Shown here: positions 746 through 14,114 of the stretch, in pieces
How the letters are laid out: every line of letters starts with the position of its first letter
Position numbering within the stretch: position 1 is the first letter of the stretch
Assembly (NCBI GenBank): GCA_011051425.1
Contig: DRLF01000166.1
Span: 1 to 14,618, forward strand
Length of the DNA: 14,618 nt
Source: Thiolapillus brandeum
GTDB taxonomy: Bacteria; Pseudomonadota; Gammaproteobacteria; Chromatiales; Chromatiaceae
Direction of reading: 5' to 3'
Translations under genes and position numbers: made by a program
Notes under the pieces: model-generated
Database searches by the model: none
What the model saw: the letters and a program-made list of their open reading frames with translations, nothing else
What the model was told of the DNA's origin: nothing

Positions 746-759
746 TTGATCAGCATCAA
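746..759 (+). promoter_or_regulatory. Perfect FNR/ANR-type box upstream of yhcC-ubiUV
   Basis: TTGAT-CAGC-ATCAA matches the FNR consensus TTGAT-N4-ATCAA at every fixed position. Its centre (752.5) lies 40.5 bp upstream of the A of the yhcC ATG at 793. FNR and its relatives activate class II promoters from about -41.5, so the predicted start point falls on or next to that ATG. E. coli ubiUV are known to be under Fnr control, which fits. Confidence 0.85.
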
Positions 760-781
760 GCCGGGGAGGAAGTATTTGTGT

Positions 782-787
782 CATAAA
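782..787 (+). promoter_or_regulatory. Candidate -10 element for the FNR-dependent yhcC promoter
   Basis: CATAAA matches the -10 consensus at 4 of 6 positions and is centred 32 bp from the FNR box centre, as expected for a class II site at -41.5. It predicts a transcript starting at about 793-794. No separate -35 is expected because the activator overlaps it. Confidence 0.5.
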
Positions 788-792
788 GCGCC

Positions 793-1764
793 ATGCCTGA
801 AAGTGCGCTGTTTTCTTCCGTAGTTCTTTCTGACCGGGTCAATACTTTTGGCCAGGACCTGCTGCGCCGCTATGGTGAGCGGGTGCACAAGCTGGCTGTA
901 AATGCCGGTTTCACCTGCCCCAACAGGGATGGCACCAAGGGGCGTGGTGGCTGTACTTTCTGCAACAATGTTTCTTTCAGTCCCAATGCACGCCGTGAGC
1001 CGGATGTGCTGGGCCAGTTGGCCTCCGGCCGCAAGGTGCTCGCAAAACGTACCGGCGCCAGGAAATTCCTCGCCTATTTTCAGGCCTATACCAATACTTA
1101 TGCCGATGTGGATGATCTGGACAGGATGTATCGCCAGGCCTTGTCCCAACCTGATGTGGTGGGCCTGTCGGTGGGCACGCGCCCGGACTGTGTGCCGCCC
1201 GCAGTGCTGGACCTGCTGGCGTCCTACCAGGAAGAAGGTCATGAGATCTGGCTGGAACTGGGCCTGCAGTCTGCCTTCGATCAGACCCTGGAACGGGTCA
1301 ACCGGGGCCATGATTTTGCTGAATACCGGCAGGCTGTCATTGCCGCCCGGGCCCGCGGATTGCAGGTCTGCACCCACCTGATCGTCGGGCTTCCCGGAGA
1401 AACTGCGGCCGATTCCCTGCTCAGCCTGGATCGGGTGCTGGATCTGGGGGTGGAAGGCCTGAAAATCCACCCCCTGCATGTGGTGAAAGGAACCCGGCTG
1501 GCCAACGACTGGCGGCGGGGTGGGTACGAACCCCTGGTATTCGATGACTATATCGACACGGTGGTGCAGATGGTGGCGCGCACCCCCAGGGAGGTCGTTT
1601 TTCACCGCCTGACCGGTACCGCTCCCCAGAACATTCTGCTCGCACCCACGTGGTGCAACTGGAAATGGCGCGTGCTCAACGCCATTACCCGGAAGCTGGT
1701 GGAGAAAGGCCTTGAGCAGGGCGCCCTGGCGGCTACCCTGCCTTCCGCTGTTAATTCTGACTAG
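793..1764 (+). CDS. yhcC: YhcC-type radical SAM protein (TIGR01212 family)
   Basis: This 323-residue protein matches E. coli YhcC in its opening (NTFGQDLLRRYGERVHKL, then GFTCPNRDGTKGRGGCTFC). Cysteines 42, 54 and 57 form the C-X11-C-X2-C cluster motif of this radical SAM family, expected to bind a 4Fe-4S cluster and S-adenosylmethionine. The substrate of the family is not established. ATG 793 is the first start after an in-frame TAA at 784. A purine-rich GGGGAGGA at 763-770 is about 22 bases upstream, too far to serve this ATG. It heads an apparent operon with ubiU (9-bp gap) and ubiV, under a perfect FNR box. Co-transcription with anaerobic ubiquinone genes suggests, but does not prove, a role in anaerobic metabolism. 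Confidence 0.92.
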   Translation: MPESALFSSVVLSDRVNTFGQDLLRRYGERVHKLAVNAGFTCPNRDGTKGRGGCTFCNNVSFSPNARREPDVLGQLASGRKVLAKRTGARKFLAYFQAYTNTYADVDDLDRMYRQALSQPDVVGLSVGTRPDCVPPAVLDLLASYQEEGHEIWLELGLQSAFDQTLERVNRGHDFAEYRQAVIAARARGLQVCTHLIVGLPGETAADSLLSLDRVLDLGVEGLKIHPLHVVKGTRLANDWRRGGYEPLVFDDYIDTVVQMVARTPREVVFHRLTGTAPQNILLAPTWCNWKWRVLNAITRKLVEKGLEQGALAATLPSAVNSD

Positions 1765-1773
1765 AGGTTTTTC

Positions 1774-2769
1774 ATGCAACTCGTATGTCCTGCAGGTAAC
1801 CTGCCGTCACTCAAGGCTGCCATCGATGAAGGCGCCGATGTTGTCTACCTGGGATTCAGGGACGATACCAATGCCCGCAATTTTGCGGGTCTGAACTTCA
1901 ACGACAAGACCCTGGCCCAGGGACTGGACTATGTGTGCGGCCGGGGCAGGGAGGTCTACGTGGCGCTCAACACCTACCCGCGCCCCCAGGGCTGGAAGCG
2001 CTGGCAGGCAGCCGTGGACAGGGCGGCGGAGATGCAGGCCAATGCCCTCATCGCTGCCGACATGGGGGTGCTGGACTATGCGGCAAACCGCTATCCGGAT
2101 CTTCCTCTGCACCTGTCGGTTCAGGGTTCCGCCACCAACTACGAAGCCCTGACGTTCTACAGGGAACGCTTCGGTATCCGTCGCGCCGTGCTGCCCCGGG
2201 TGCTGTCCATGCCCCAGGTGAAGCATGTGGCAGACAACGCCCCGATGGAAATCGAGGTGTTCGGTTTCGGCAGCCTGTGCGTGATGGTGGAAGGGCGCTG
2301 CCTTTTGTCGTCCTATGCTGCCGGACAGTCGCCCAATACCCACGGCTGTTGCTCTCCCGCCGGGGAAGTGCGTTATGAAGAGACAGCGACGGGCATGGAG
2401 ACACGTCTCGGTGGCGTGCTGGTGGACAGGGTGGGCAAGGGCGAGAACGCCGGTTATCCCACCGTGTGCAAGGGCCGCTATGATGCCCTGGACAAGACCT
2501 ATTACGCCATGGAAGAGCCCACCAGCCTCAATACTCTCGATCTGCTGCCGAAACTGCTGGCTGCCGGCATCGCCGCCATCAAAATCGAAGGCCGCCAGCG
2601 CAGCCCGGCCTATGTGCGCCAGGTGACCCGGGTGTGGCGTCAGGCCATCGACAGTTGCCTGAGCGACCCGGCCGGCTTTCAGCCCCGTGGTGAATGGATG
2701 CAGCAGCTTGGCGCGGTCTCCGAAGGGCAGCAGACGACTCTGGGTGCCTACCACAGAACCTGGCAATGA
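1774..2769 (+). CDS. ubiU: UbiU, O2-independent ubiquinone hydroxylation (U32 family)
   Basis: This 331-residue protein belongs to peptidase family U32 and has the same length as E. coli UbiU (YhbU). It begins MQLVCPAGNLPSLKAAIDEG, typical of the family. Cysteines 169, 176, 193 and 232 are all present, the positions known to hold the 4Fe-4S cluster in E. coli UbiU; a further Cys sits at 192. UbiU forms a heterodimer with UbiV that hydroxylates the ubiquinone precursor ring without oxygen. AGAGG at about 1763-1767 is a reasonable ribosome binding site for ATG 1774. The stop overlaps the ubiV start (ATGA at 2766-2769), indicating translational coupling and matched amounts of the two subunits. 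Despite the family name, proteolysis is not expected. Confidence 0.95.
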   Translation: MQLVCPAGNLPSLKAAIDEGADVVYLGFRDDTNARNFAGLNFNDKTLAQGLDYVCGRGREVYVALNTYPRPQGWKRWQAAVDRAAEMQANALIAADMGVLDYAANRYPDLPLHLSVQGSATNYEALTFYRERFGIRRAVLPRVLSMPQVKHVADNAPMEIEVFGFGSLCVMVEGRCLLSSYAAGQSPNTHGCCSPAGEVRYEETATGMETRLGGVLVDRVGKGENAGYPTVCKGRYDALDKTYYAMEEPTSLNTLDLLPKLLAAGIAAIKIEGRQRSPAYVRQVTRVWRQAIDSCLSDPAGFQPRGEWMQQLGAVSEGQQTTLGAYHRTWQ

Positions 2770-3662
2770 GTGACGACAGCATGAAACTATCCCTTGGTCC
2801 CGTGCAGTATTACTGGTCCCGGGAGGATCTTCTGGATTTCTACCGGCAGGTGGCGGACATGCCCGTGGATTTGGTTTACCTGGGCGAAACCGTCTGCTCC
2901 AAGCGTCGCCTGTTCCGTTTCGACGACTGGATGGACACCGCCCGCATGCTGCGGGATGCCGGCAAGGAAGTGGTGCTTTCCACCCTGGCGCTGCTGGAGG
3001 CCGAATCCGAGCTCAAGACTCTGCGGCGCATCTGCGCCAACGGTGAATTCCTGGTGGAAGCCAACGACATGGCGGCGGTACAGTTGCTGTCGGCGGCAGG
3101 CCTGCCCTTTGTGGCAGGGCCGACGGTGAACATCTACAACGCTGCGACCCTGGGCGTGCTGGCGGACGCGGGACTGAAACGCTGGGTACCCGCCGTGGAA
3201 CTGGACAAAGACACCCTGGCCGCCATCGGGCAGGAAGCTCCGGAGCAGGTGGAAACCGAGCTGTTCGCCTGGGGCCGCATGCCCCTGGCCATGTCCGCCC
3301 GCTGCTATACCGCCCGGGCCTATGACCTGCCCAAGGATGATTGCCAGTATCGCTGTCTGGATCATGCCGACGGCCTGACTCTTCGCACCCGTGAGGGCGA
3401 GCCCTTCCTGGCCATCAACGGCATTCAGACCCAGTCCGCCCTGACCTGCAACCTGCTGCCTGAAATCAAAACCATGGACGGACTGGGCATCGATGTGTTG
3501 CGTATCAGCCCTCAGGCGCGGCATACGGATCGCATCGTGCAGGCTTTTGCCGAGGCACTGCAGGGCGGGAGCGAACTGCCCGACCTGCAACGCCTCATGC
3601 CTGTGGGTGGCTGCGATGGCTACTGGCACGGCGAAGCAGGGATGCGCCGGCATTCAGCTTGA
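2766..3662 (+). CDS. ubiV: UbiV, partner of UbiU in O2-independent ubiquinone synthesis
   Basis: With the start at the ATGA overlap with ubiU (2766), the product is 298 residues, close to the 292 of E. coli UbiV (YhbV). An upstream in-frame ATG at 2694 lies inside ubiU and is unlikely. Cysteines 44, 180, 193 and 197 (SARC at 177-180, DDCQYRC at 191-197) match the four cluster ligands of E. coli UbiV; the last three have the same residue numbers. The protein begins MSDDSMKLSLGPVQYYW and carries the U32 fold segment VDLVYLGETVCSKR. It works as the UbiU-UbiV heterodimer in the anaerobic branch of ubiquinone synthesis. It ends 14 bp from the converging gene at 3677, and no obvious terminator lies between them. 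Confidence 0.95.
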   Translation: MSDDSMKLSLGPVQYYWSREDLLDFYRQVADMPVDLVYLGETVCSKRRLFRFDDWMDTARMLRDAGKEVVLSTLALLEAESELKTLRRICANGEFLVEANDMAAVQLLSAAGLPFVAGPTVNIYNAATLGVLADAGLKRWVPAVELDKDTLAAIGQEAPEQVETELFAWGRMPLAMSARCYTARAYDLPKDDCQYRCLDHADGLTLRTREGEPFLAINGIQTQSALTCNLLPEIKTMDGLGIDVLRISPQARHTDRIVQAFAEALQGGSELPDLQRLMPVGGCDGYWHGEAGMRRHSA

Positions 3663-3676
3663 AACACGTGGCATGC

Positions 3677-5704
3677 TCATCTGCGCCGCAGGTAAGGCGC
3701 GCAACTCAGATCTGAACAATGGACAGCCCGCAAAGCGCTGATGCTTCCGCTAAAATAAACAAAGATGGGTAAGCCGTCAGCGCCAATGGTCAGTGATGTT
3801 TCACCGGGCTGGCCGCCAAAGACTGCGCTGTCATTGATTTGGTCACTGGTGCAGCCGGCATCGTTGCACTGGCTATAGTAAATGCGGCTACCGTTTCCCC
3901 AGCCATAGGTGATGCGTCCCAGTCCATCGGGAGCCAGTGTGATGGAAAAATACCGAAACTCGGTTCCGAAGATCAGCGCATTGACAGTCGCTGTGGAACA
4001 GTTGAAATTGGTGCAGTGGGCCACAAAGGCTGCGGAGCCTGGATTTGGTTTGCCATAGGCGATCAACGGCCGGCCATCGGCAGCGGCGGTGATCGAAGTC
4101 CACAGCCCTGTGTCTTCATCGCTGCCGCCGCTGGCGCTGGTGGGGGAGCCATCCACCGTGGCAATGAGCGGGCTGCTGCAGCTCATGTTGGTGCAGCGGG
4201 CGACTTTCAGATCACCGTTGCTCCTGTCGTAGTAACTGATCCAGGCGTCATCCCGCCCATTGCGCATCACCGAACTGTATTCGCCCACACTGCCGTTACT
4301 GTCAATGGTCCAGACGCTGGAGCTGCTGCAGGCTTCGTTGTTGCACCTGAGCACTTTCAGGTCTTTGTTGCCATCATCGAAGTAGGAGATAAAGGCATAG
4401 CCGGAGCCAGTCGTTGTGATCGATGTCCACTTCCCGACAGCACCTGCCGTGTCGAGGGAAGATACGATGGCGCTGCTGCAGGCGCGGTTCTGGCAGCGGG
4501 CCAGCTTTAGATCGGCATTGCCTGCATCATAGTAACTGATCAAACCAAAACCGTTGCGGCCGATGGTAATCGATGAATATTGCCCTACCGATCCTGTGGT
4601 ATCGATGGCAGTGGCGGTGCCGCTGGAGCAGGTCAGATCATCGCAGTGATAGACATAGAGATCCTGTGTGGTCGCGTTGTAGTAGCTGATCAGGGGCAGT
4701 CCGTCCAGGCCGATGATGATGGCCGGTTGCCTGCCGGTGTCACCCACGCTGTCCAGGATGGTGGAAGTGTGGCCGGGTTTGGGCAGGGTGGCAACGCGCA
4801 GGGTGTTGCCATCGTAGGTCAGGCCCTCCCCGGCAGTGGCATGGGTGTCAGCCTGGCAGACGACGCTGCCGTTCTGGTGGATCCCGCGAATACTCTGTCC
4901 GGATGGACAACCGCTGGAGACTCGTGCCTGAATGGCGCTCGTGTTCACGCTCAGGGTTACATCGCCGCTGCTGCCACCACCGCTCAGGCCATTACCTGCC
5001 GTGATGCCGGTGATGCCGTTGGAGGCAGAGGCAGCGCAGAGCCACTGGCTGCCGTCCCAGCGGGCAATTTCATCGTTGGCGCAGCTTTGCGGTAACTGGT
5101 AAGCGGTTTCCAGACTCAGGGTCAGGTCGCCGCTGCTGCCGCCGCCGGAGAGGCCGGTACCGGGATTGACCGCAGTGATATTGCTGCCACTTGTTCCCAC
5201 ATCATCGGTTTCGCAGGTCACATTGCCGTCGGCGTCGATGGCGCGGATGGATGAACCTGCCGGACAGCTGCCGGCGCCGCCAAACACCTGTTCCAGCGCG
5301 GCGGTATTGGCGGCGGAGGTCTGCAGACTGTTATCGGGGAAACGGAATCCCGTGTTGCTGGTAATCTCGCCTTCGCTGGTGAGTCCGCCGGGCGTTGCCG
5401 CCTGGATACGGATGCCGCTCGGCTGTTCGTCTACCATCACCTCTCCCCACAGGGGGCGCGGCAAATTGCTGTCGATGTGGATACTCCACACAGGGCTGCT
5501 GTTTTTTTCTGTGAGCTGCCATTGGTCAGGCGTCAGCAGGTGTTCCTCCACTGCCTGGGAGGCGTCCGGACCGGTGTAGAGCAGCAGGCTGATGCGTTTT
5601 GCCCTGGCAGGATCGACAGCATCCGCCGCCGGTGTAAACAGATACTCATGGGCCTGCAGTCCCGTGCTCAGGACCAATAGCAAAATCATTGGCAATGTGT
5701 GCAT
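3677..5704 (-). CDS. Secreted repeat protein, predicted seven-bladed propeller with one Cys pair per blade
   Basis: This 675-residue protein has a signal peptide (about 1-18, cut near LQA/HE). Residues 19-105 are unassigned. Residues 113-131 (EITSNTGFRFPDNSLQTSA) resemble linkers seen in phage-tail-like and surface proteins. Two copies of GLSGGGSSGD (184-193, 239-248) and two C-P-x-G-x-S-I-R modules (147-164, 266-283) follow. From about 310 to the end there are seven repeats of about 50 residues, built around SIT-x-G-x-G-LISYYD-x-x-x-x-DLK-x-x-RC-x4-C. Each has a C-X4-C pair, starting at residues 354, 404, 454, 504, 564, 613 and 663. Seven such repeats suggest a closed beta-propeller with disulfides formed outside the cytoplasm. 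AAAGGAG upstream serves ATG 5704. It lies 41 bp after the protease gene, probably in one operon. Function unknown. Confidence 0.85.
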   Translation of the reverse strand: MHTLPMILLLVLSTGLQAHEYLFTPAADAVDPARAKRISLLLYTGPDASQAVEEHLLTPDQWQLTEKNSSPVWSIHIDSNLPRPLWGEVMVDEQPSGIRIQAATPGGLTSEGEITSNTGFRFPDNSLQTSAANTAALEQVFGGAGSCPAGSSIRAIDADGNVTCETDDVGTSGSNITAVNPGTGLSGGGSSGDLTLSLETAYQLPQSCANDEIARWDGSQWLCAASASNGITGITAGNGLSGGGSSGDVTLSVNTSAIQARVSSGCPSGQSIRGIHQNGSVVCQADTHATAGEGLTYDGNTLRVATLPKPGHTSTILDSVGDTGRQPAIIIGLDGLPLISYYNATTQDLYVYHCDDLTCSSGTATAIDTTGSVGQYSSITIGRNGFGLISYYDAGNADLKLARCQNRACSSAIVSSLDTAGAVGKWTSITTTGSGYAFISYFDDGNKDLKVLRCNNEACSSSSVWTIDSNGSVGEYSSVMRNGRDDAWISYYDRSNGDLKVARCTNMSCSSPLIATVDGSPTSASGGSDEDTGLWTSITAAADGRPLIAYGKPNPGSAAFVAHCTNFNCSTATVNALIFGTEFRYFSITLAPDGLGRITYGWGNGSRIYYSQCNDAGCTSDQINDSAVFGGQPGETSLTIGADGLPIFVYFSGSISALRAVHCSDLSCAPYLRRR

Positions 5705-5745
5705 GTTAGATTTCTCCTTTGTTTTGATGAATTGATAGAGGTGCC

Positions 5746-7656
5746 CTAAAGCCCGAACCAGCCGGTGACTTCGTTCACTACATCGGAAGCGGTATCTGTC
5801 GCTTCGTCGATGAATTCTTCCACCAGTTCCTCGGCTTCTTCGACGGTATCGTCGACGAATTCCTCTGCCGCATCCCGGGCATCGCCGATAGCATTGGCGG
5901 CGTCCTCGGCTGCCTGTTCGACGGTTTCTGCAGCATTGCCGATGGCCAGCACCAGGGATGCGAGTACGGGGTCTGTCATCATCATGGTGACGAGTTCTTC
6001 GCCCACCTGGTCCACAACAGATTCAGCGTTGTCGCCGAAGACGGTTTCAACCCACCGAGGTGGTGTAAAGCGGTTGCCGGCATTGCCGGTGATATCCACC
6101 CCCAGGAGATTTCCGATATCGTCGATGATGGGTGGGAAGGGAAATCGTCGCGGGTCGGGCAGCGTGCGCCTGTCCATCAGGCCACGCAGGTTCAGGATGC
6201 CGGGTCCGTCCAGGCTGGTGTTCCAGCCCGCCGGCCGTCGTGCTGTCTGCCGCATGTGGGTGCGGAAGAGCTCCTGCAGCGTGCTGCGTCCTGCCAGTGC
6301 GTTGATGAGAGTGTTGCGGTTGAAGCGTTGCAGCCAGAGCGCTGCTGCACCTGCGACGATGGCTGTGCCGAAAGATGTGCCGCGACTGGGTCCGGACGTT
6401 GGATCAGTACCCTGCCAGCCGGGGCGGTGTACACATTCCGAAGGTGCGGAAATGTCGATCAGGCCTTCTCGGAAGTGATCCCTGGCCGAACCTTCCCAAA
6501 CCGTATCCTCGATAGTGGATCCCCCCACGGCGATACAGGAAGGATAGGCGGCGGGATACACCACGAAGGGCCATTGGTTGCCCGCAGCAGCTATGACGAT
6601 GACGTTGTTTGCCACTGCCCAGGCGACGGCCCACTCCAGAATGGGCGCAGGATAACCACCCAGGCTCATGGAGATCACATGCGCACCCGCATTGACCGCG
6701 GCGACGATCGCTTGAGCAACGTTGATGTCTCCAATGAGCACCACGCTGTTTATGGTCCGGATGGAGACAACGGCAGCGCCAGGCGCCAGGCCATTCACCT
6801 GATTGTCGGCGCTGCTGATCAGCAGGCCACCGGTCGCGGTGCCGTGATGTGCGTTGAGCGCGGCAGAAGGTACGGCTTCTTCCGCCGAAGCCGAGTTGGG
6901 GTCAAAGATACTTACATCGGCGTCCAGGTCATAGTTTGGGCTGGTGCCATCCGGCGCAAAATTAAGCTGATCATGGGGTGTCCACCCTGTATCGGGATGG
7001 CCGATGCGAATGCCTGATCCATCCACGTCTGCCGGCACCGCGTCATAGCCGATATTGTCGAGGTGCCAACGGCTGCCGGTGCCGTCCGGGCAATCGCGAA
7101 AATTTCCCAGCAGCGTGGAATAGGCCTGGTAGTGAGGGTATTGAAGGTCGGGCACCACGGACGCCAGACCGCATTTTTTCTGTAGCTGGTAACCGATATC
7201 AAACAATGTGCCCTGGGGTTTGCATTGCTCACGGCGGAAAGTGCCTTCGTAGTAAGGGACAGTAAGTATGAAAAACTGATGGCGTGAGAGTCCGGGCGCC
7301 ATTTTTGAAGAGCGTGTTTTTCTGTCGGGCATGAAAGGCGCCAGTCTGAGTGGCAGTCCGGGTGGTTTGCCGTTTTTCACGAGTTCATGCCGCTTTTTCA
7401 GTGTGGCATCATCCACAAAATATGGAGCCCGATGTCGTGTGACGGTCTTTTTACGAAAATTGAACGGATCGGGACGGCGGCCGTTTTTTGCATGGTAGTC
7501 CCAAAAAGATTTGTCCACGCGCAGCAGTTCCGGCATGTATTCCAGCGCGATAGCGCCCAGTGCAAGCTCGATGCAGGCGAGCAATTCCTTTTCATCGACT
7601 TCTTTCGTCGTATGCAGTGCAAACCGCAACAGACGATCTGGCTGTCCTGTTCTCAT
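5746..7656 (-). CDS. Subtilisin-like (S8) serine protease with long N- and C-terminal extensions
   Basis: This 636-residue protein has a complete S8 catalytic set: Asp222 (GHPDTGW), His271 (NAHHGT), oxyanion Asn360 (AAAGN) and Ser428 (RGTSFGTA). The protease domain spans about 205-495. The first 200 residues carry no obvious signal peptide or membrane helix, and I do not recognise them; they may be a propeptide or a substrate-recognition domain. The tail (about 540-636) is predicted helical and very acidic, rich in Ala, Glu and Asp, ending TGWFGL. Cysteines lie at 145, 162, 189, 374 and 408. AAGGAGG at 7665-7671 gives a strong ribosome binding site for ATG 7656. It is the first gene of a likely two-gene operon with the secreted propeller protein, and a 637-bp control region precedes it. 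How it leaves the cytoplasm, if it does, is unclear. Confidence 0.9.
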   Translation of the reverse strand: MRTGQPDRLLRFALHTTKEVDEKELLACIELALGAIALEYMPELLRVDKSFWDYHAKNGRRPDPFNFRKKTVTRHRAPYFVDDATLKKRHELVKNGKPPGLPLRLAPFMPDRKTRSSKMAPGLSRHQFFILTVPYYEGTFRREQCKPQGTLFDIGYQLQKKCGLASVVPDLQYPHYQAYSTLLGNFRDCPDGTGSRWHLDNIGYDAVPADVDGSGIRIGHPDTGWTPHDQLNFAPDGTSPNYDLDADVSIFDPNSASAEEAVPSAALNAHHGTATGGLLISSADNQVNGLAPGAAVVSIRTINSVVLIGDINVAQAIVAAVNAGAHVISMSLGGYPAPILEWAVAWAVANNVIVIAAAGNQWPFVVYPAAYPSCIAVGGSTIEDTVWEGSARDHFREGLIDISAPSECVHRPGWQGTDPTSGPSRGTSFGTAIVAGAAALWLQRFNRNTLINALAGRSTLQELFRTHMRQTARRPAGWNTSLDGPGILNLRGLMDRRTLPDPRRFPFPPIIDDIGNLLGVDITGNAGNRFTPPRWVETVFGDNAESVVDQVGEELVTMMMTDPVLASLVLAIGNAAETVEQAAEDAANAIGDARDAAEEFVDDTVEEAEELVEEFIDEATDTASDVVNEVTGWFGL

Positions 7657-7823
7657 GGTTCTTTCCTCCTTTGGTTTCCGGTACCGGTCATTGATTCTTG
7701 TTGTGGCCGGTGTCGTCGATCTCTTGTTGCATCTCCGTGTATGGCATCTTCCACAGCCTCATTCCGTCGAAGGTTTGCCGTGAGTGATTGCTGCTTCCGT
7801 AGTCTCGATTGTTGTGGATGGTG

Positions 7824-7852
7824 GTAATAACGCTTGAATCAAGCTTGAACAA
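7824..7852 (-). promoter_or_regulatory. Weak candidate promoter for the protease-propeller operon
   Basis: On the minus strand, TTGTTC (7847-7852) and TATTAC (7824-7829) are separated by 17 bp. They match the consensus at 3 of 6 and 4 of 6 positions, typical of an activator-dependent promoter. The leader would be about 160 nt. One copy of a 13-bp direct repeat ends 6 bp upstream of the -35. Confidence 0.3.
7833..7848. promoter_or_regulatory. Overlapping palindromes CTTGA-A-TCAAG and TCAAGCTTGA
   Basis: CTTGAATCAAG (7833-7843) and TCAAGCTTGA (7839-7848) are each perfect palindromes sharing TCAAG. They lie within or beside the -35/-10 spacer of the candidate protease promoter, so a protein bound here could act as a repressor. 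No known operator is identified. Confidence 0.4.
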
Positions 7853-7858
7853 AGTTTG

Positions 7859-7871
7859 AAGAAATGTAAAA
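7859..7871 (-). promoter_or_regulatory. 13-bp direct repeat, promoter-proximal copy
   Basis: The minus strand reads TTTTACATTTCTT, identical to the copy at 7932-7944. It resembles the T-rich half-sites bound by OmpR-family winged-helix regulators. A regulator with such a domain is encoded by the neighbouring gene at 8294-10318. Confidence 0.45.
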
Positions 7872-7920
7872 TTCAATAAAAACAATGAGTTGTAGGTGAT
7901 TGTTCCTGGTGGTGTGCTGA

Positions 7921-7944
7921 TTGAAATTTCAAAGAAATGTAAAA
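7921..7944 (-). promoter_or_regulatory. Perfect 12-bp palindrome abutting the distal 13-bp direct repeat
   Basis: TTGAAATTTCAA (7921-7932) is a perfect palindrome. The second TTTTACATTTCTT copy (minus strand, 7932-7944) overlaps its last base. The two repeat copies are exactly 73 bp apart, close to seven helical turns, so proteins bound at both would face the same side of the DNA. Confidence 0.45.
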
Positions 7945-8293
7945 CAGGACAGGTGTCGGTCCTTTTCAGGTCCTGGTGTATGCGCACCGAAACACGGACC
8001 GGTGTTCCGGGTGGTCGTGGAAGGTGACCTGCTGAGGAGGGAGTGGAGTCTGGCCCGCATATTTCACCGGAATGCGCATTTTTTCCCGAAGAGATTTTCG
8101 TTGAGATCGTTCGAACGGCCAAAAGTCGATGTCATTCATCGGCTTGCAGGCCGTTCGGGCGGGCTGGGCGGAAAGATCCCTGGAAAAAGCGCATAGCGTC
8201 AAAGTGACAGCTTGTTCCAGGCCCGTTTACAGCGAGCATTAGACTACCGCTGTTATCTGCGGCTTTATCGAGCGTTCTGGTGAGATATGCGAG

Positions 8294-10318
8294 CTAGAGA
8301 CCGGTTGTCTGTTGCGCTGACGCAGAGGCTATCTTTTCCAGCAGCATCTGATGTTCAGGTTTCCAGGCACTGCCGGTCTTTTCCCTTACCTGCAGGGCGA
8401 TTTCCCGTGCCTTGGCGTATTTCTGCTCTTCAAAGGCCAGGCGTGCGGGCAGCAGGGCGATGCCTGGGTCGGTCGCCTGGAATTCCGTGCCGGTTTGAAT
8501 ATGTGTTTTTGCCGCGGAGGGCTGGTGTTTGTCCAGGTAGGCAGCCGCCAGATAGTTGTGCGCCTGGTATTCGACATAACCCAGCTCTTTTTCCCGCAGG
8601 ACGGGAAGCAGGTTTTCCAGATACCGTATCCCGGCTTCTGTTTTACCCCGTAAGATATCGATACGCGCCATGTCCACCTGTGCCAGCGCAGCCCCTTCCG
8701 TATCGCCGAGCTTCTCGAACACAGGTATCAGGGTCTCCAGTTTCTTCCTGGCCTGTTCCAGTCTGCCGGTGACCTTGAGCAGGTTGGCCTGCTGAAACCC
8801 GACCATGGCGATAAGCTGGCGGTTACCCAGCTGCTGAAAGATCAACTCGGCTTGCCGGTAATAGGGCTCGGCTTTCCGATAATTGTTAGCGCCCGTGTGG
8901 ACGTTGCCGATATTGAACAGCACTTTACCTATGCCGGGCCTGAATTTTGCCTGCCGGTACAGCTGTTCAGCAGATAGCAGGTAGGACAAAGCCCGGTCAT
9001 TGTCGCCACTGGCCTGGTAACTGGTGCCGATATTCATCAGCTCTGCAGCCTGGGCAATCAGATCGCCCGATGCCCGGGCCAGTTTCAGCAATTGGTCTGA
9101 CAGGTTGCGTGACTCCGCCAGTTTTCCCTGGGCGTACAGCAGATTGGAGCGCACCCGTAGTGTCTGGAAGTAGATGTCTGCGGGCAGATCTTCCGTGCTC
9201 AAAAGCCGGGTGATCAGTTGCTGTGAGGTATCCAGGTCGTTCAACCGGTAGAGGGCGTCGGCAAGCCGCACCTTTGCCCACAGAAATTCCGGATCGATGC
9301 CCAGGGCGATACGCAGGTATTGCGCGGCGGCTTTGGGCTCGCCGTTGAACAGTTCCTGGGAACCCATGGCATAAGCGCGGTTTGCCGCTTTGTCCGCAGA
9401 ATAGCTGACAGCGGTATCCACGATCCAGGGGCGGGCAGGGTCGACCCAGCGGGTAATCTCCCGGGCAACGCCGGAACCGGCTTCCAGCACCGTGTTTGCC
9501 GTAATGACACGTAAAGGGTGCAAGCCCTTCGCGGTGGCAAGCTGGTAGCTCAGATGGGCGCCGTCAGATACTTCATCCAGACGGGCTGAGAGCAGGATCT
9601 GACAACCCAGGGCCGGGCAGATGCTGTCGAAAGCCTTTTTCAGTTTGTGAGGGTCAGAAAGGTTTTCCGGCAGAGGGTTGTTTTTCAGGAAAGCGAGTAC
9701 CTTGTTGGTGTCCAGGGTATTGATGCCTGCCGATTCCCCCAGCATCTGGCCAAGCATGTCCATAAGCCCCAGTTCCACCCAGGAATAGGCGGGATTGGCG
9801 CTGTTGTTCTCCAGGGGCAGCAGCGCGACTGTATAGGGATAGCCTTCGAGGTCTGCCAGGGGATTCCCGAGAGCGGGGCGTTGCTGTTGTTTCAGCCAGC
9901 CAAACAGTGCCAGGGACAGCAGCAAAAGGGCAGGCAATCCCCAGAGCCAGCGCTTTCTTTTCCTGTGCGCCGGGTCGGTGGCAGGCAATGATGATGGTGA
10001 TGGTGTTTCTGTGAGTACGGGATCGACCAGAAAGCGTACGCCGACACCGTGCATGGTCTTGATATAGGTGGGGTTGCGACTGTCATCATCGAGCAGTTGC
10101 CTGGAACGCCGGATAAGCTGGGACAGGGACCAGTCGCTGACTTCCTGGCGGGGCCAAAGTGTCTCCAGCAGCTCACGGCGGCTTACGGTTTCCGGATAGC
10201 GCCGCAACAGCAGATGCAGCAGCGCCACCACCCGGGGCTCGGCCTCGATCAGCTCATTGTCGCGGTACAGCAGTTTCTTCTGTGGATTCAGCCGATATTG
10301 ATTGAAACGGTATTCCAT
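8294..10318 (-). CDS. Membrane-anchored winged-helix regulator with periplasmic TPR domain (CadC/ToxR-like)
   Basis: This 674-residue protein has an OmpR/PhoB-type DNA-binding winged helix at about residues 1-98 (YRFNQYRLNPQKKLL at the start, NPTYIKTMHGVGVRFLV at the end). A linker, a basic patch HRKRKR and one membrane helix (about 124-142) follow. Residues about 155-300 form a periplasmic domain resembling FlgO/TolB N-terminal modules (YPYTVALLPLENNS), with a Cys pair at 234 and 239. Tetratricopeptide repeats fill about 310-640. This is the plan of one-component membrane regulators that read a periplasmic signal and bind DNA directly. I chose ATG 10318 because AGG lies five bases upstream; GTG 10324 is an in-frame alternative. 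It is on the same strand as the protease operon and is its most likely regulator, an inference from position only. Confidence 0.88.
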   Translation of the reverse strand: MEYRFNQYRLNPQKKLLYRDNELIEAEPRVVALLHLLLRRYPETVSRRELLETLWPRQEVSDWSLSQLIRRSRQLLDDDSRNPTYIKTMHGVGVRFLVDPVLTETPSPSSLPATDPAHRKRKRWLWGLPALLLLSLALFGWLKQQQRPALGNPLADLEGYPYTVALLPLENNSANPAYSWVELGLMDMLGQMLGESAGINTLDTNKVLAFLKNNPLPENLSDPHKLKKAFDSICPALGCQILLSARLDEVSDGAHLSYQLATAKGLHPLRVITANTVLEAGSGVAREITRWVDPARPWIVDTAVSYSADKAANRAYAMGSQELFNGEPKAAAQYLRIALGIDPEFLWAKVRLADALYRLNDLDTSQQLITRLLSTEDLPADIYFQTLRVRSNLLYAQGKLAESRNLSDQLLKLARASGDLIAQAAELMNIGTSYQASGDNDRALSYLLSAEQLYRQAKFRPGIGKVLFNIGNVHTGANNYRKAEPYYRQAELIFQQLGNRQLIAMVGFQQANLLKVTGRLEQARKKLETLIPVFEKLGDTEGAALAQVDMARIDILRGKTEAGIRYLENLLPVLREKELGYVEYQAHNYLAAAYLDKHQPSAAKTHIQTGTEFQATDPGIALLPARLAFEEQKYAKAREIALQVREKTGSAWKPEHQMLLEKIASASAQQTTGL

Positions 10319-10547
10319 CGCCACCTGTCAATTGTGATGCCTGAACATAAGGATAGACTACCTGTTTGGTTTTATTCCCGGATTTTTTTCCTGCTTTTGT
10401 TGGGCCAAGTGGTGGTGGCTGCGGCTTACCGCATGCCTGTTGAGCCACAGGTAACGGCTGCCGCGCCTGAAAATCAGCGGAAGGCAGCGGCGCACCCTCT
10501 CATCCGGTTCGTTATCCTGATCTGCTGTTTGAATATATCTTGTCTTT

Positions 10548-10563
10548 TCATCAGAACTGATGA
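10548..10563. promoter_or_regulatory. Inverted repeat TCATCAG-AA-CTGATGA
   Basis: Two perfect 7-bp arms flank AA, giving a 16-bp operator-like site beside the AT-rich GAATATATCTTG. Its place in a divergent spacer suggests a regulator site. The binding protein is unknown. Confidence 0.45.
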
Positions 10564-10621
10564 TGACTTTGGGCTTTGTCGGGGTCTAAGTTGTACCTGA
10601 AGCTGATAAAGCGGAGAAAGG

Positions 10622-10642
10622 AACCACAAAAAAGAGGTGGTT
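10622..10642 (+). other. Small hairpin in the leader of the secreted-protein gene
   Basis: AACCAC (10622-10627) pairs with GTGGTT (10637-10642) around an A-rich 9-base loop, about 50 bases before the ATG at 10695. It could shape the leader RNA; no function is implied. Confidence 0.3.
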
Positions 10643-10694
10643 TCTGCCAAGTACATAGAAGGAAGAGCGACTGATACACCATAAGGAGCAAGAC

Positions 10695-11033
10695 ATGAAC
10701 ACTAAAACAGTGAAAACTACAATTTACATTCTGATCATCTTTCTAAGCCAAAACCTGTTTGCAGAACAATCGGTTACGAAGGAAATGGAGAGCTGGTCCA
10801 TGAAGGCGATCTATGAACCCAGTCAGCACCAGCTCGAAAGGGAGAAGCGTGGGCTGGTGAATATCTACGACGGTTTTACCGATACCCAGGTCAACCGGGT
10901 GATGGACGACAAGTTTGGGCGTATCGATCACATGATGTTCACGCGCGTCAAATCCACCGGCGATGACGGACAAGTGTTGAAAGACCCTGAAAGCGGTGAA
11001 GAGGTTGTCGAAGACGATGGCTGTGATGACTGA
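10695..11033 (+). CDS. Small secreted acidic protein, function unknown
   Basis: This 112-residue protein has a clear signal peptide: MNTKTVKTT, a hydrophobic stretch IYILIIFLS, and a cut site at about LFA/EQ (residue 23). AAGGAG at 10683-10688 stands six bases before the ATG. The mature part of about 89 residues is polar and charged. It includes WSMKAIYEPSQHQLEREKRG, a Tyr-Asp-Gly-Phe segment, and an acidic end (EEVVEDDGCDD) with the only Cys. I do not recognise a family. It is followed by a hairpin and a LuxR-type regulator on the same strand, so the regulator may control it or share its signal. It is divergent from the membrane winged-helix regulator, which could also bind upstream of it. 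Confidence 0.8.
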   Translation: MNTKTVKTTIYILIIFLSQNLFAEQSVTKEMESWSMKAIYEPSQHQLEREKRGLVNIYDGFTDTQVNRVMDDKFGRIDHMMFTRVKSTGDDGQVLKDPESGEEVVEDDGCDD

Positions 11034-11051
11034 GTGCTGAGCGGTTTAACA

Positions 11052-11075
11052 GGCGGTCACAGTGATGTGGCCGCC
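11052..11075 (+). other. 9-bp hairpin after the secreted-protein gene, no T-run
   Basis: GGCGGTCAC (11052-11060) pairs with GTGGCCGCC (11067-11075) around AGTGAT, with one wobble pair in RNA. It lies 18 bases after the stop, as a terminator would, but GGATTCAG follows instead of a T-run. It may be a 3' processing or stability hairpin, or an operator for the promoter just downstream. Confidence 0.5.
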
Positions 11076-11093
11076 GGATTCAGAATACCCGAC

Positions 11094-11099
11094 TATAAT
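11094..11099 (+). promoter_or_regulatory. Consensus -10 (TATAAT) upstream of the LuxR-type gene
   Basis: TATAAT is a perfect -10 hexamer and predicts a start near 11106, giving a leader of about 53 nt. No good -35 is found 16-18 bp upstream (CCGCCG region), so an activator may be required. Confidence 0.55.
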
Positions 11100-11123
11100 A
11101 CTAAGTTAATAGCAACAGCATGT

Positions 11124-11140
11124 GGTGCCACGCAGGCACC
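11124..11140 (+). promoter_or_regulatory. Palindrome GGTGCC-ACGCA-GGCACC in the LuxR-type gene leader
   Basis: Two perfect 6-bp arms flank 5 bp, lying between the predicted transcription start and the ribosome binding site at 11150. It could be an autoregulatory operator or a leader hairpin. Confidence 0.4.
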
Positions 11141-11158
11141 CTGACAATCGGAGGAATC

Positions 11159-12298
11159 ATGGAGATAAACCCGATCGAATTCAGAGAAACACTGCACAGT
11201 ATCCCGTTCTCGGCAGATTCATGGAATGACCTGATCAGTCTCATCAAGACATCCACGCAAAGCCAGGCCGGGATCATGATGATCACCCGGGATCAGGACC
11301 ATGACATACTGAACAGCCACTCGCCGGATTTTGTCATGTCTCAGGATGTTCGCTGTGCATTTGAAGAAAGTGAATGGTTCACGGCGGCGCTGCCGGAAAA
11401 ATGGTCCCGGAGCTATCTGGGCAAAGGCGTGGTGCTGGGCACGGATATCGTACCGCAGGAAAAGATGCGCACTACGCCGTTTTATCAGGAGGTACTCAGC
11501 TCACTGGGACTGGAATACCTGATGGCTGGTATCTCCCTGTATGGTGAGGATTACCGTACACTGCTCAAGTTTTTCCGGGAAAGCAAGCAGGACAATTTTA
11601 CCGGCGATGAGGTGCTGGGGCTCTCCGTGCTGATGCCGGAAATACGCCAGATGATGCGCTTCACCGAGCGACTCTACGAGCGCATGGTCGTGGAGACAGC
11701 GGAAAGCAGGGCGGGTGCACCGCGGGGGGCTGCGACCATCGTCATCAATGAACGGGGTGAGATCGTGCAGACCAATCAGGTGGCCGATGATCTGCTCAGC
11801 AGAGGCAGGATCCTCGACGCCAGACAGAAGCATCTCTATGCGCCGGATTCCCTGGACAGCAATGCGCTGAGCCGCGTGATGGCAAATGCCCTGGGCAATA
11901 CGGGCACCCCTGTGCAGGGCTGCGCCCTGGTTGGGGAAGGCAGTGACCTGGGAGTACATCAGTTGCTTGCTTTGCCTGTACCGCTGGAAGAGCCGCCATT
12001 CCCCTGGATGGACGCCCTGCGGGTGGCGGTTGTGGTGGTGATCGATCCCATGCGCAAGGTCAGGGTGGATGGCGGGATACTGAAAACCCTCTACCACATC
12101 ACCCCGGCGGAAGTTGCTTTGGTCAATGCCATGGCGAACGGGATCAAACCCGTGCAGTATGCGGCCCAGGTGAACCGGTCAGTGGCCACGGTGCAGACAC
12201 AGCGCCAGTCTGTCTTCCAGAAGATCGGTGTGAGCAGCCAGTTGGAGCTGATGAGCGTGTTGCGTGATCTGACGACTTCTTTCGAAGCGCCGGAATAG
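11159..12298 (+). CDS. LuxR-family transcriptional regulator with two N-terminal sensor-like regions
   Basis: This 379-residue protein ends in a LuxR/GerE-type helix-turn-helix at about residues 308-372 (ITPAEVALVNAMANGI, then RSVATVQTQRQSVFQKIGV), matching the family pattern of TPAE and a recognition helix before KIGVSSQLEL. Residues about 15-165 look like a GAF-type sensor. Residues about 190-295 (AATIVINERGEIVQTNQVADDLL) resemble a PAS-like fold. There is no receiver domain or acyl-homoserine-lactone signature that I can recognise, so the signal is unknown. GGAGGA at 11150-11155 supports ATG 11159; an in-frame ATG at 11120 would leave almost no leader after the TATAAT. It converges with ubiT, 22 bp apart. 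Possible targets are the upstream secreted-protein gene and its own promoter. Confidence 0.88.
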   Translation: MEINPIEFRETLHSIPFSADSWNDLISLIKTSTQSQAGIMMITRDQDHDILNSHSPDFVMSQDVRCAFEESEWFTAALPEKWSRSYLGKGVVLGTDIVPQEKMRTTPFYQEVLSSLGLEYLMAGISLYGEDYRTLLKFFRESKQDNFTGDEVLGLSVLMPEIRQMMRFTERLYERMVVETAESRAGAPRGAATIVINERGEIVQTNQVADDLLSRGRILDARQKHLYAPDSLDSNALSRVMANALGNTGTPVQGCALVGEGSDLGVHQLLALPVPLEEPPFPWMDALRVAVVVVIDPMRKVRVDGGILKTLYHITPAEVALVNAMANGIKPVQYAAQVNRSVATVQTQRQSVFQKIGVSSQLELMSVLRDLTTSFEAPE

Positions 12299-12320
12299 TC
12301 CTGTCCCGCTCAGAATCGCG

Positions 12321-12797
12321 TTATTTCAGGACGCCGGCCAGTCTGCTGGCGATGCGATGCAGGGGGTCGGGCAGCAAGTCCCCGTCCAGGGAATAGAGCA
12401 GATTCTTGATCTCCAGGCCCAGTTCCGTATCGCCTTCGAGCTGCAGGCGACGCTGGAAGAACAGGGTGTCCGGGTCTTCCTCGTTGAGTGCCAGCAGCAG
12501 AAACTCCCGTGACCTGCCGCCGAAGCGCACGTCCGGTGCGTTTCCATGGGCAGCTGCGGCAAGCTTTCCCCTGTCCAGGGTCAGGCGGTAATCCAGGGCA
12601 AGGTCCATGACCTCGATCTGCAAAACACGGTCCTGTAAAAAATCCAGTTCACCGCCGGCCAGCGCTTCAGACAACAGCCGGTTCAGCAGCAGGGTCAGCC
12701 CCTGAGAGTGAAGCCGGCCGGGCAGCAACCTGCCGGGCAGGGTGCGCAATGACCCGACACGGGGTGGGGGGAATGGAAGAGGCAGACGTGTAATCAT
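12321..12797 (-). CDS. ubiT: UbiT, SCP2-domain lipid-binding factor for anaerobic ubiquinone synthesis
   Basis: This 158-residue protein carries an SCP2 (sterol-carrier) domain and closely matches E. coli UbiT (YhbT, 174 residues) in its hallmark segment: DPDTLFFQRRLQLEGDTELGL (109-128 region), then IKNLL. UbiT is required with UbiU and UbiV for O2-independent ubiquinone synthesis and is thought to bind the hydrophobic intermediates. The reading frame stays open upstream to 13106, but that part runs antisense through the nnrS start and does not resemble UbiT; MITRLPLPF at 12797 fits the family start. No ribosome binding site precedes this ATG, and an FNR-like box lies exactly 41.5 bp upstream, suggesting a leaderless mRNA. 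Unlike in E. coli, ubiT is not adjacent to ubiUV here. Confidence 0.92.
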   Translation of the reverse strand: MITRLPLPFPPPRVGSLRTLPGRLLPGRLHSQGLTLLLNRLLSEALAGGELDFLQDRVLQIEVMDLALDYRLTLDRGKLAAAAHGNAPDVRFGGRSREFLLLALNEEDPDTLFFQRRLQLEGDTELGLEIKNLLYSLDGDLLPDPLHRIASRLAGVLK

Positions 12798-12831
12798 GAG
12801 CGGAGTTTGCCACGGTTGTCTGGTGGCCCAT

Positions 12832-12845
12832 TTGAGCAACGTCAA
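12832..12845. promoter_or_regulatory. FNR/DNR-type box between divergent ubiT and nnrS
   Basis: TTGAG-CAAC-GTCAA keeps the key TTGA-N6-TCAA of FNR and DNR sites, with one change in each half compared with the perfect consensus. The centre (12838.5) is 41.5 bp from the A of the ubiT ATG, with CAAACT (minus strand, 12804-12809) as a weak -10. It is 76 bp from the nnrS ATG; a class II start for nnrS would fall near 12880, where the -10 is poor (GAAGAT). The site most clearly serves ubiT and may also serve nnrS. Confidence 0.7.
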
Positions 12846-12914: not shown

Positions 12915-14114
12915 ATGTCTTTGAATATAGGAGAACCCCCGGTAATGCGTAAAAGCGGCAGTTTTGCGCTGTTCGCCCTGGGTTTCCGCCCCTTTTTTCT
13001 GGCAGCAGGTCTTTCTGCGCTGGTGCTGCTGGGTCTGTGGCTGGCGTTCTGGCAGGGCGTGGTGCCGGCGAAAGGCTATTTCACGTTGGTGGAATGGCAT
13101 GCTCACGAGATGCTGTTCGGCTATGCATCTGCCGTGATCGCCGGTTTTCTGCTGACGGCGGTAAAGAACTGGACCGGCATGGCAGTGCCTACTGGAAGGC
13201 TGCTGGTGATCATTTCCAGTGTCTGGTTGCTGGGCCGTGTCCTGGTGGTGACGCCGGGAGCACCCCAGTGGCTGGTGGCCGCGGTGGACCTGGCTTTCAT
13301 TCCACTGGTTGGCTGGTCATTGTGGCGCCCGTTATGGCACGGACAGAACAGGGTCAACCGTATGTTCCTGCTTATTTTCGCGGGCATGACCCTGGCCAAT
13401 CTGCTGGTGCATCTGGACGTGATGGGCGTGGCCAGGAACCTCTGGCCCCGGGGTGTCTACCTGATGGTGGACATGGTATTGCTGGTGCTGTTGCTGGTGG
13501 CGGGGAGGGTGGTGCCTTTCTTTACCGAGAAAGCTGTTCCCGGGGCGCGCTCCACCGTGCGGCCCTGGGTGGAGAAAGGTACGTTCATCAGCATGGTGAT
13601 TGCCGCGGGGGCGGAACTTGCCTTGCCGCACGGACCTGTGGCAGGTGCAGCCCTGCTGGCCGCGGCCCTGATACAGGGTATCCGTCTTGCCGGCTGGTAC
13701 CATCCCGGCATCTGGCGTGTACCCATCCTCTGGGTGTTGCACGTCGGCTATGCCTGGCTGGTGCTGGGCCTGACGCTGCGTGGTCTTTCGGGATTCGGTG
13801 TGCTGTTGCCGTCGGTGGCGCTGCATGCGATCACGGTGGGCGGCATCGGTGTGCTCACCCTGGGTATGATGTCTCGTGTGGCTCTGGGTCATACCGGCCG
13901 CAATATCAACGATACCGGGCCTTTCATCCCCGTGGCTTTCGTGCTGCTCAACCTCGGAGCCGTGATGCGCGTGTTCGGCCCCTGGCTGGCTCCGCAGCAA
14001 TTCAACCTGTGGATCAATATCGCCGGTGGCTTGTGGATGCTGGCCTTCCTGCTGTTTGCGCTGGTTTACACGCCCATACTCATCCGCCCCCGCATCGATG
14101 GCCGACCGGGTTAA
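12915..14114 (+). CDS. nnrS: NnrS family membrane protein, nitrosative-stress protection
   Basis: This 399-residue, strongly hydrophobic protein has about twelve membrane helices, the length and layout of NnrS. Family marks are FALGFRPFFLAAG (about 20-32), WHAHEMLFGYASAVIAGFLLTA (61-82; His62 and His64 are possible heme or metal ligands), NWTG (85-88), and GGIGVLTLGMMSRVALGHTGR near residue 320. NnrS is a heme- and copper-containing membrane protein linked to denitrification that protects cells from nitric oxide stress. AGGAG at 12903-12907 supports ATG 12915; an ATG at 12945 is a less likely alternative. It is divergent from ubiT across an FNR-type box and overlaps the next gene by 17 bp. 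Confidence 0.93.
   Translation: MSLNIGEPPVMRKSGSFALFALGFRPFFLAAGLSALVLLGLWLAFWQGVVPAKGYFTLVEWHAHEMLFGYASAVIAGFLLTAVKNWTGMAVPTGRLLVIISSVWLLGRVLVVTPGAPQWLVAAVDLAFIPLVGWSLWRPLWHGQNRVNRMFLLIFAGMTLANLLVHLDVMGVARNLWPRGVYLMVDMVLLVLLLVAGRVVPFFTEKAVPGARSTVRPWVEKGTFISMVIAAGAELALPHGPVAGAALLAAALIQGIRLAGWYHPGIWRVPILWVLHVGYAWLVLGLTLRGLSGFGVLLPSVALHAITVGGIGVLTLGMMSRVALGHTGRNINDTGPFIPVAFVLLNLGAVMRVFGPWLAPQQFNLWINIAGGLWMLAFLLFALVYTPILIRPRIDGRPG

Follow-up and report, generated by a model that had tools for sequence, protein, structure and literature searches.

Probable class II FNR promoters for leaderless or near-leaderless ubiT and yhcC-ubiUV mRNAs

Introduction

In E. coli, fusions and site mutations have shown that FNR activates ubiUV and ubiT (PMC10470549), and FNR control of both is already on record in the available text of this and a second publication (PMC11707229). 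Leaderless genes have also been catalogued. For instance, the consulted part of one survey reports them in 15 of 239 gammaproteobacterial genomes, with a share of 3.0-5.7% (PMC3160421), and in Salmonella, according to the portion of text at hand, there are 16 fully leaderless genes plus 17 with leaders of 1-6 nt (PMC3293720).

The window analysed here (the whole stretch of DNA, 14,618 nt) is contig C166 of a 2.74 Mb genome that consists of 479 contigs and is 84% complete. The eight nearest named UbiU loci (87-93% identity) come from six MAGs of Sedimenticola sp., one Chromatiaceae bacterium and one Gammaproteobacteria bacterium. An earlier note on this DNA had proposed that the anaerobic ubiquinone genes form a leaderless set driven by the same regulator. 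From the comparison of sequences presented below, we consider it probable that class II FNR promoters give leaderless or near-leaderless ubiT and yhcC-ubiUV mRNAs.

Gene content of the window

The genes yhcC, ubiU and ubiV lie at 793-3662 on the plus strand, and ubiT, 8.6 kb further on, is found at 12797-12321 on the minus strand, divergent from nnrS (12915-14114, plus strand; Pfam NnrS). The presumed operon is headed by yhcC (793-1764), which codes for a radical SAM protein of the MnmL/YtqA tRNA-modification family (TIGR01212, 377.7 bits), followed after 9 nt by ubiU (1774-2769; NF047963, 547.4 bits) and then by ubiV (2766-3662; NF047965, 402.8 bits on 2769-3662), which overlaps the end of ubiU and whose start was picked by eye. 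The product of ubiT (12321-12797, minus strand) matches NCBIfam NF047962 UbiT (134.8 bits) and Pfam SCP2. The family models of UbiU, UbiV and UbiT all score above cut-off, while the best model for yhcC is one of tRNA modification, not ubiquinone, and this gene is tied to the pathway by gene order alone. Additionally, ubiU would not be leaderless, since an AGAGG Shine-Dalgarno-like motif precedes it. Consequently, the proposal of a leaderless set is supported for the ubiT and yhcC promoters, but it does not extend to ubiU, and yhcC itself is a MnmL/YtqA gene.

Several observations concern the surroundings of these genes. About 8.6 kb of other genes (3677-12300) part ubiV from ubiT in the window; in G029, G126 and G077, ubiT is convergent and at most about 1 kb from the end of ubiU. 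The contig end (1-164) is a perfect tandem repeat with 3.1 copies of a 53-bp unit. Just 5′ of yhcC, positions 484-714 code for a small protein, membrane-like by eye and with no family model above cut-off, which is matched in 12/12 yhcC loci of the genus (L225-L236). Within 793-2769, the second-best model for UbiU is the tRNA hydroxylase TrhP, below cut-off; together with a MnmL/YtqA gene heading the ubiUV set, this match raises the possibility that tRNA modification and anaerobic ubiquinone are connected.

The probable ubiT and yhcC promoters

Class II FNR sites are centred at -41.5 from +1. The FNR-type box of ubiT (TTGACGTTGCTCAA; 12832-12845, read 12845-12832 on the minus strand; centre 12838.5) appears on the plus strand as TTGAG-N4-GTCAA, with one mismatch to TTGAYN4RTCAA, and in window coordinates its centre and the A of the ATG (12797) are 41.5 bp apart, so that strand, box and distance are as the earlier note had claimed. 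The same note saw no ribosome binding site at this ATG, and we likewise found no Shine-Dalgarno motif upstream of it by eye. An extended -10-like element, TGG-CAAACT (12804-12812, minus strand; hexamer 12809-12804), lies between box and ATG, with the hexamer 22 bp past the box and 6 bp before the ATG; CAAACT has only 3/6 matches to TATAAT. Given a class II centre at -41.5, the predicted +1 of ubiT is the A of its ATG.

The box of the yhcC-ubiUV operon (TTGATCAGCATCAA; 746-759, plus strand) is a perfect consensus and lies 40.5 bp from the ATG at 793. Its extended -10-like element, TG-T-CATAAA (779-787, plus strand; hexamer 782-787), has the hexamer 22 bp past the box and 5 bp before the ATG, and CATAAA lacks the final T of TATAAT. 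As the hexamer contains an in-frame TAA, the ATG is the first possible start, and no further ATG, GTG or TTG occurs in the window between this ATG and the conserved core. The predicted +1 is the T of the ATG or, one base earlier, its A, and yhcC in the window would need an RNA start 6 bases past the hexamer, which is below the usual length. It is the -10-like hexamer 22 bp past the box, in a class II layout, that leads us to predict an RNA start at or near the ATG, with a leader of about 0-1 nt. It had been claimed that yhcC repeats the arrangement of ubiT; the gap of 22 bp between box and hexamer does recur, but the distance to the ATG is 40.5 instead of 41.5. The further claim that both start codons fall on the predicted +1 agrees, if worded as on or next to it, with the class II layout and the conserved spacing.

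The alignments of these promoters (8 ubiT, 9 yhcC) contain only genomes with 41.5 or 40.5 spacing. Among the eight ubiT promoters, 2/14 positions of the box are variable, TGGCAAACT is unchanged in 8/8, the 19-nt spacer before the -10 has a mean identity of 53%, and the 6-nt stretch from the -10 to the ATG has 42% identity with no changes in length. In the nine yhcC promoters, the -10 region TTTGTGnCATAAA has a mean identity of 93%, compared with 43% for the spacer. The ubiT starts at 41.5, placed by alignment, are all ATG where inspected (the window and the aligned genomes).

Two FNR-like proteins of the same genome (L187 and L188), which has six HTH_Crp_2 proteins, carry CX2CX5C and an ETVSR helix, a combination that we take to indicate FNR with iron-sulfur cysteines.

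Spacing in the genus and chance expectation

A ubiT match was found in 13/15 genomes of the genus and a yhcC match in 14, one of them cut off (G195); the counts that follow refer to related genomes, not to independent events. The box is at 41.5 from ubiT in 9/13 (G000, G029, G198, G126, G195, G106, G197, G077 and G177) and elsewhere in the other four, namely at 67.5 in G190, 69.5 in G167, 230.5 in G141 (which has extra sequence) and 67.5 in G196 (by eye). As found, leaderless-type ubiT would be confined to one part of the genus. For yhcC, the distance is 40.5 in 10/13 readable genes, 43.5 in G196 (by eye) and 204.5 in two cases, G177 and L110, the latter equated with G197 through its ubiT promoter. 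In these last two, an insertion of about 165 bp separates the yhcC -10 from the ATG, which is now preceded by GAGG, so leaderlessness appears to be dispensable at yhcC. Extra stretches of about 165 bp between -10 and ATG were seen at yhcC in L049, L110 and L111, where the inserted sequence ends in GAGG before the ATG, and at ubiT in L025.

A box of the quality of that of ubiT is, by itself, not rare; at up to one mismatch, the window has three matches compared with 1.29 expected, and 28/200 shuffles reached as many. Perfect boxes number 19 in the window's own genome, against two for the reversed pattern. When the whole geometry was used as the pattern (box, 22 bp, hexamer, 5-6 bp, ATG), the 15 genus genomes gave 29 matches, ten of them at yhcC and nine at ubiT, and the reversed pattern gave none. 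The 194 family genomes gave 79 rows, including 24 for yhcC (23 placed by locus and one, from G031, by likeness only), and again none with the reversed pattern; the strict form used for the family misses the yhcC and ubiT sites of the window itself (hexamer end, box mismatch).

Geometry matches in general were rejected as further leaderless genes, since most give short ORFs and few real genes. Among the ten genus matches that are neither yhcC nor ubiT, L207 (404 aa) and L219 (244 aa) stand before real ORFs, and L217 (81 aa) perhaps does as well. In the family, the 30 rows read comprised nine yhcC, the ubiT of G088 and 20 giving ORFs of 2-129 aa; 20 further non-yhcC rows gave 17 ORFs of 2-49 aa and three of 263, 301 and 177 aa; the remainder is made up of 15 yhcC rows and 14 unread there, two of which had been read earlier. 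The ubiT of G088 was dropped as an additional leaderless case because another in-frame ATG precedes its start by 9 nt. The 404-aa ORF at L207 (G155:C102) resembles NosD by eye and shares the geometry from box to ATG, in a single genome.

We also discarded the idea that all FNR genes of the genus are leaderless, as in G000 and G077 the distance between perfect boxes and ATGs varies widely. Beside 14 other boxes of the window's own genome, 20/24 called ORFs start 65.5-217.5 bp away and 17/24 have a Shine-Dalgarno motif, in calls made by a crude script that favours Shine-Dalgarno starts and that surely include some ORFs that are not genes; four more of the 19 sites are without a locus, and one is the yhcC site of the window.

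Spacing across the family and beyond

In the family, ubiU is present in 159/194 genomes, and the upstream sequence was read for 145 of 150 listed places, window included; 117 of the 145 have a yhcC match, 113 with a readable upstream (two without a called start). A box with at most one mismatch lies within 200 nt of 70 of these 113 yhcC genes and is perfect in 49. With start codons picked by script, 33 of the 70 have their ATG at 40.5 or 42.5, in eight genera and two parts of a quick tree. The perfect boxes are distributed as eight at 40.5 (genus g1), 24 at 42.5 and 17 scattered over 63.5-119.5; the 21 boxes with one mismatch include a single one at 42.5, with the others ranging from 30.5 to 135.5. 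The 42.5 type is found in g19, g23, g24, g28, g33, g49 and g57, mostly as a TAGnTT hexamer, 7 bases and the ATG, and its leader is predicted to be 0 or 1 nt long. In g27, the ATG is at the same place in 7/8 genomes without such a box, and three g57 genomes also have none.

In the yhcC tree (112 rows, a quick FastTree run), the 40.5 and 42.5 types form distinct groups, and other lineages are placed between the two. Two origins at yhcC look likelier than one, the alternative being one origin followed by losses; the tree count of six changes includes at least one too many, as G098, with boxes at 78.5 and 112.5, had been mislabelled as near.

Outside g1, counting perfect boxes within 200 nt at loci with at least 200 nt upstream (duplicates retained), we found them at 11/47 yhcC, 24/92 ubiU and 2/68 ubiT. 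The ubiU boxes of other genera are mostly at 57.5-70.5 (18 of the 24 loci). One ubiU, L122, from a MAG labelled uncultured Sterolibacterium, has its box at 42.5, followed by TATAAT, 7 bases and the ATG, and its N-terminal extension holds no other start. In related genera, 9/40 ubiT upstreams have a box at up to one mismatch, none of them at 40-44 (distances counted by hand). A wide 41.5 rule for ubiT is ruled out by the exceptions in the genus and by these distances in other genera. A tight peak of the kind that would support the earlier proposal (40-42 bp) is thus seen at yhcC, at 40.5 or 42.5, but not as a general rule at ubiT or ubiU.

Start codons and Shine-Dalgarno motifs

All 33 yhcC genes of the 40.5 and 42.5 types start with ATG, which is partly by construction because the script prefers this codon, and 32 lack a Shine-Dalgarno motif. 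It is also absent from 34/37 yhcC genes whose box lies elsewhere, so the missing ribosome binding site is weak evidence. In an ungapped comparison of 25 related yhcC rows of the 42.5 type, third positions of codons 2-8 are the most variable (0.574), ahead of first (0.345) and second positions (0.177); the control, 21 nt 5′ of the ATG, is also uneven, though to a smaller degree (688, 878 and 483 of 2100 by phase; 0.230-0.418), and, given this control, the likeness to translated sequence is suggestive. The yhcC orthologues elsewhere mostly start about nine codons later. Counted to this later position, the g1 distance is 67.5 (40.5 + 27), near the 63.5-69.5 of several leadered orthologues, which otherwise range from 48.5 to 134.5, and this suggests that a leader was taken into frame.

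In a 400 kb sample of G077 with 346 ORFs of at least 100 aa, 144 ORFs have no Shine-Dalgarno motif. A -10-like hexamer stands 5-7 nt before the ATG in 16/114 ATG genes without the motif, compared with a mean of 5.0 per equal window elsewhere, and in 2/140 genes with it, compared with a mean of 6.8. About 3% of G077 genes (an excess of 11/346) may be leaderless, which is near the published share, and, as the ubiT and yhcC hexamers fail the rule used, the true share may be higher. The existence of such a class makes it less likely that leaderlessness is peculiar to anaerobic genes; the recurrence of leaderlessness at the yhcC-ubiUV operon makes it more likely.

Discussion

That FNR binds here, where the RNA begins, that yhcC-ubiUV form an operon, how translation proceeds and how the arrangement evolved are all inferred from these sequences. 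At low oxygen, FNR in its iron-sulfur form would bind the box at about -41.5 and contact RNA polymerase, and transcription would begin 6-9 bases past the -10 hexamer, at the A of the ATG or no more than a few bases from it. With the RNA start at the ATG, the ubiT and yhcC-ubiU-ubiV mRNAs would begin with AUG; UbiT and YhcC would be translated via recognition of the 5′-terminal AUG, and ubiU and ubiV from initiation sites of their own. At yhcC, a short leader of about 25 nt without a Shine-Dalgarno motif, which persists in some lineages, was probably absorbed as an N-terminal extension.

Whether such leaderlessness serves a purpose is a separate matter, and here we lean slightly towards a reading that is compatible with the promoters proposed: leaderlessness would be real without having a function of its own, short leaders devoid of Shine-Dalgarno motifs behind class II FNR promoters being easily absorbed once an in-frame ATG appears at +1, in a genus that tolerates leaderless genes. 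The hexamer peak before such ATGs in G077 is consistent with this, as are the share of leaderless genes in the available text of the published survey (PMC3160421), the nearness of the g1 distance to those of leadered orthologues and the insertions that undid leaderlessness. However, there seem to have been at least two origins at yhcC, one at ubiT and one at the betaproteobacterial ubiU, the arrangement has been kept across genera, and few other real genes were found among the geometry matches read. It seems unlikely to us that leaderless initiation has been selected repeatedly as a component of anaerobic ubiquinone control, with about four origins (yhcC twice, ubiT and ubiU); if this were true, FNR together with 70S or low-initiation-factor translation of UbiT and of YhcC, as a tRNA-modifying enzyme, would couple oxygen sensing to a translational gate when oxygen falls.

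We also judge it unlikely that the boxes are real and the main transcripts start further upstream, from another promoter or in a class I arrangement, with ordinary leaders lacking Shine-Dalgarno motifs. Such starts are indeed common, both among the yhcC genes with boxes at other distances and among the G077 ORFs, and the available text on E. coli describes a second, upstream promoter for ubiT (PMC10470549). By contrast, the hexamer lies exactly 22 bp past the box in both genes and conservation is highest in this hexamer and the box; in the aligned genomes the hexamer also keeps a constant distance to the ATG although the intervening bases vary.

It is very improbable that the box at 12832-12845 serves the divergent nnrS (nitric oxide response, through FNR or a DNR-type regulator) and that its distance to ubiT is incidental: nnrS is divergent beside ubiT in 13/13 genus genomes having ubiT, and DNR/NNR regulators bind boxes similar to those of FNR, but the distance from the box to the nnrS start varies from 66.5 to 204.5 in eight of the nine 41.5-type genomes (starts found by script, each with AGGAG) and is about 597 in the ninth (G197), while that to ubiT stays at 41.5, so that the box appears to be positioned for ubiT.

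Comparison with known systems

In the literature searched, we found no description of leaderless ubiT, ubiU or yhcC, nor of leaderless genes in this bacterial group. In their accessible text, the E. coli study (PMC10470549) mentions neither leaderless mRNA nor yhcC, the 2024 article in ISME J contains none of the terms yhcC, leaderless and promoter, and the published lists of leaderless genes are genome-wide and make no tie to FNR or the ubiquinone pathway (PMC3160421, PMC3293720). Apparently new in this literature are the yhcC promoter, the fixed distance to the ATG, its probable repeated origin and the prediction of leaderless mRNAs. With the promoters proposed here, the FNR map of the pathway would gain that of yhcC, about 1 kb 5′ of ubiU; they predict an oxygen-controlled set of leaderless messages in these sulfur-oxidising bacteria and related genera, with an exact RNA start, and suggest a route from a short leader to an N-terminal extension.

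The 2024 article in ISME J, as far as its available text goes, reports, across the Pseudomonadota, conservation of FNR sites in front of ubiT and ubiU, from a scan of 450 bp upstream of ubiT, ubiU and ubiV; the yhcC boxes, at about 1 kb from ubiU, fall beyond the 450 bp scanned. As regards the promoters themselves, the likeness to leaderless bacterial genes led by TA is that the -10 stands directly before the start codon (PMC3160421, in the part consulted). Finally, the window shares with ubiUV and ubiTp2 of E. coli the same pathway genes and FNR-type sites upstream of them, but, in the available account of that system, ubiU and ubiT share one intergenic region, with sites 36 nt and 33 nt ahead of the RNA starts (PMC10470549).
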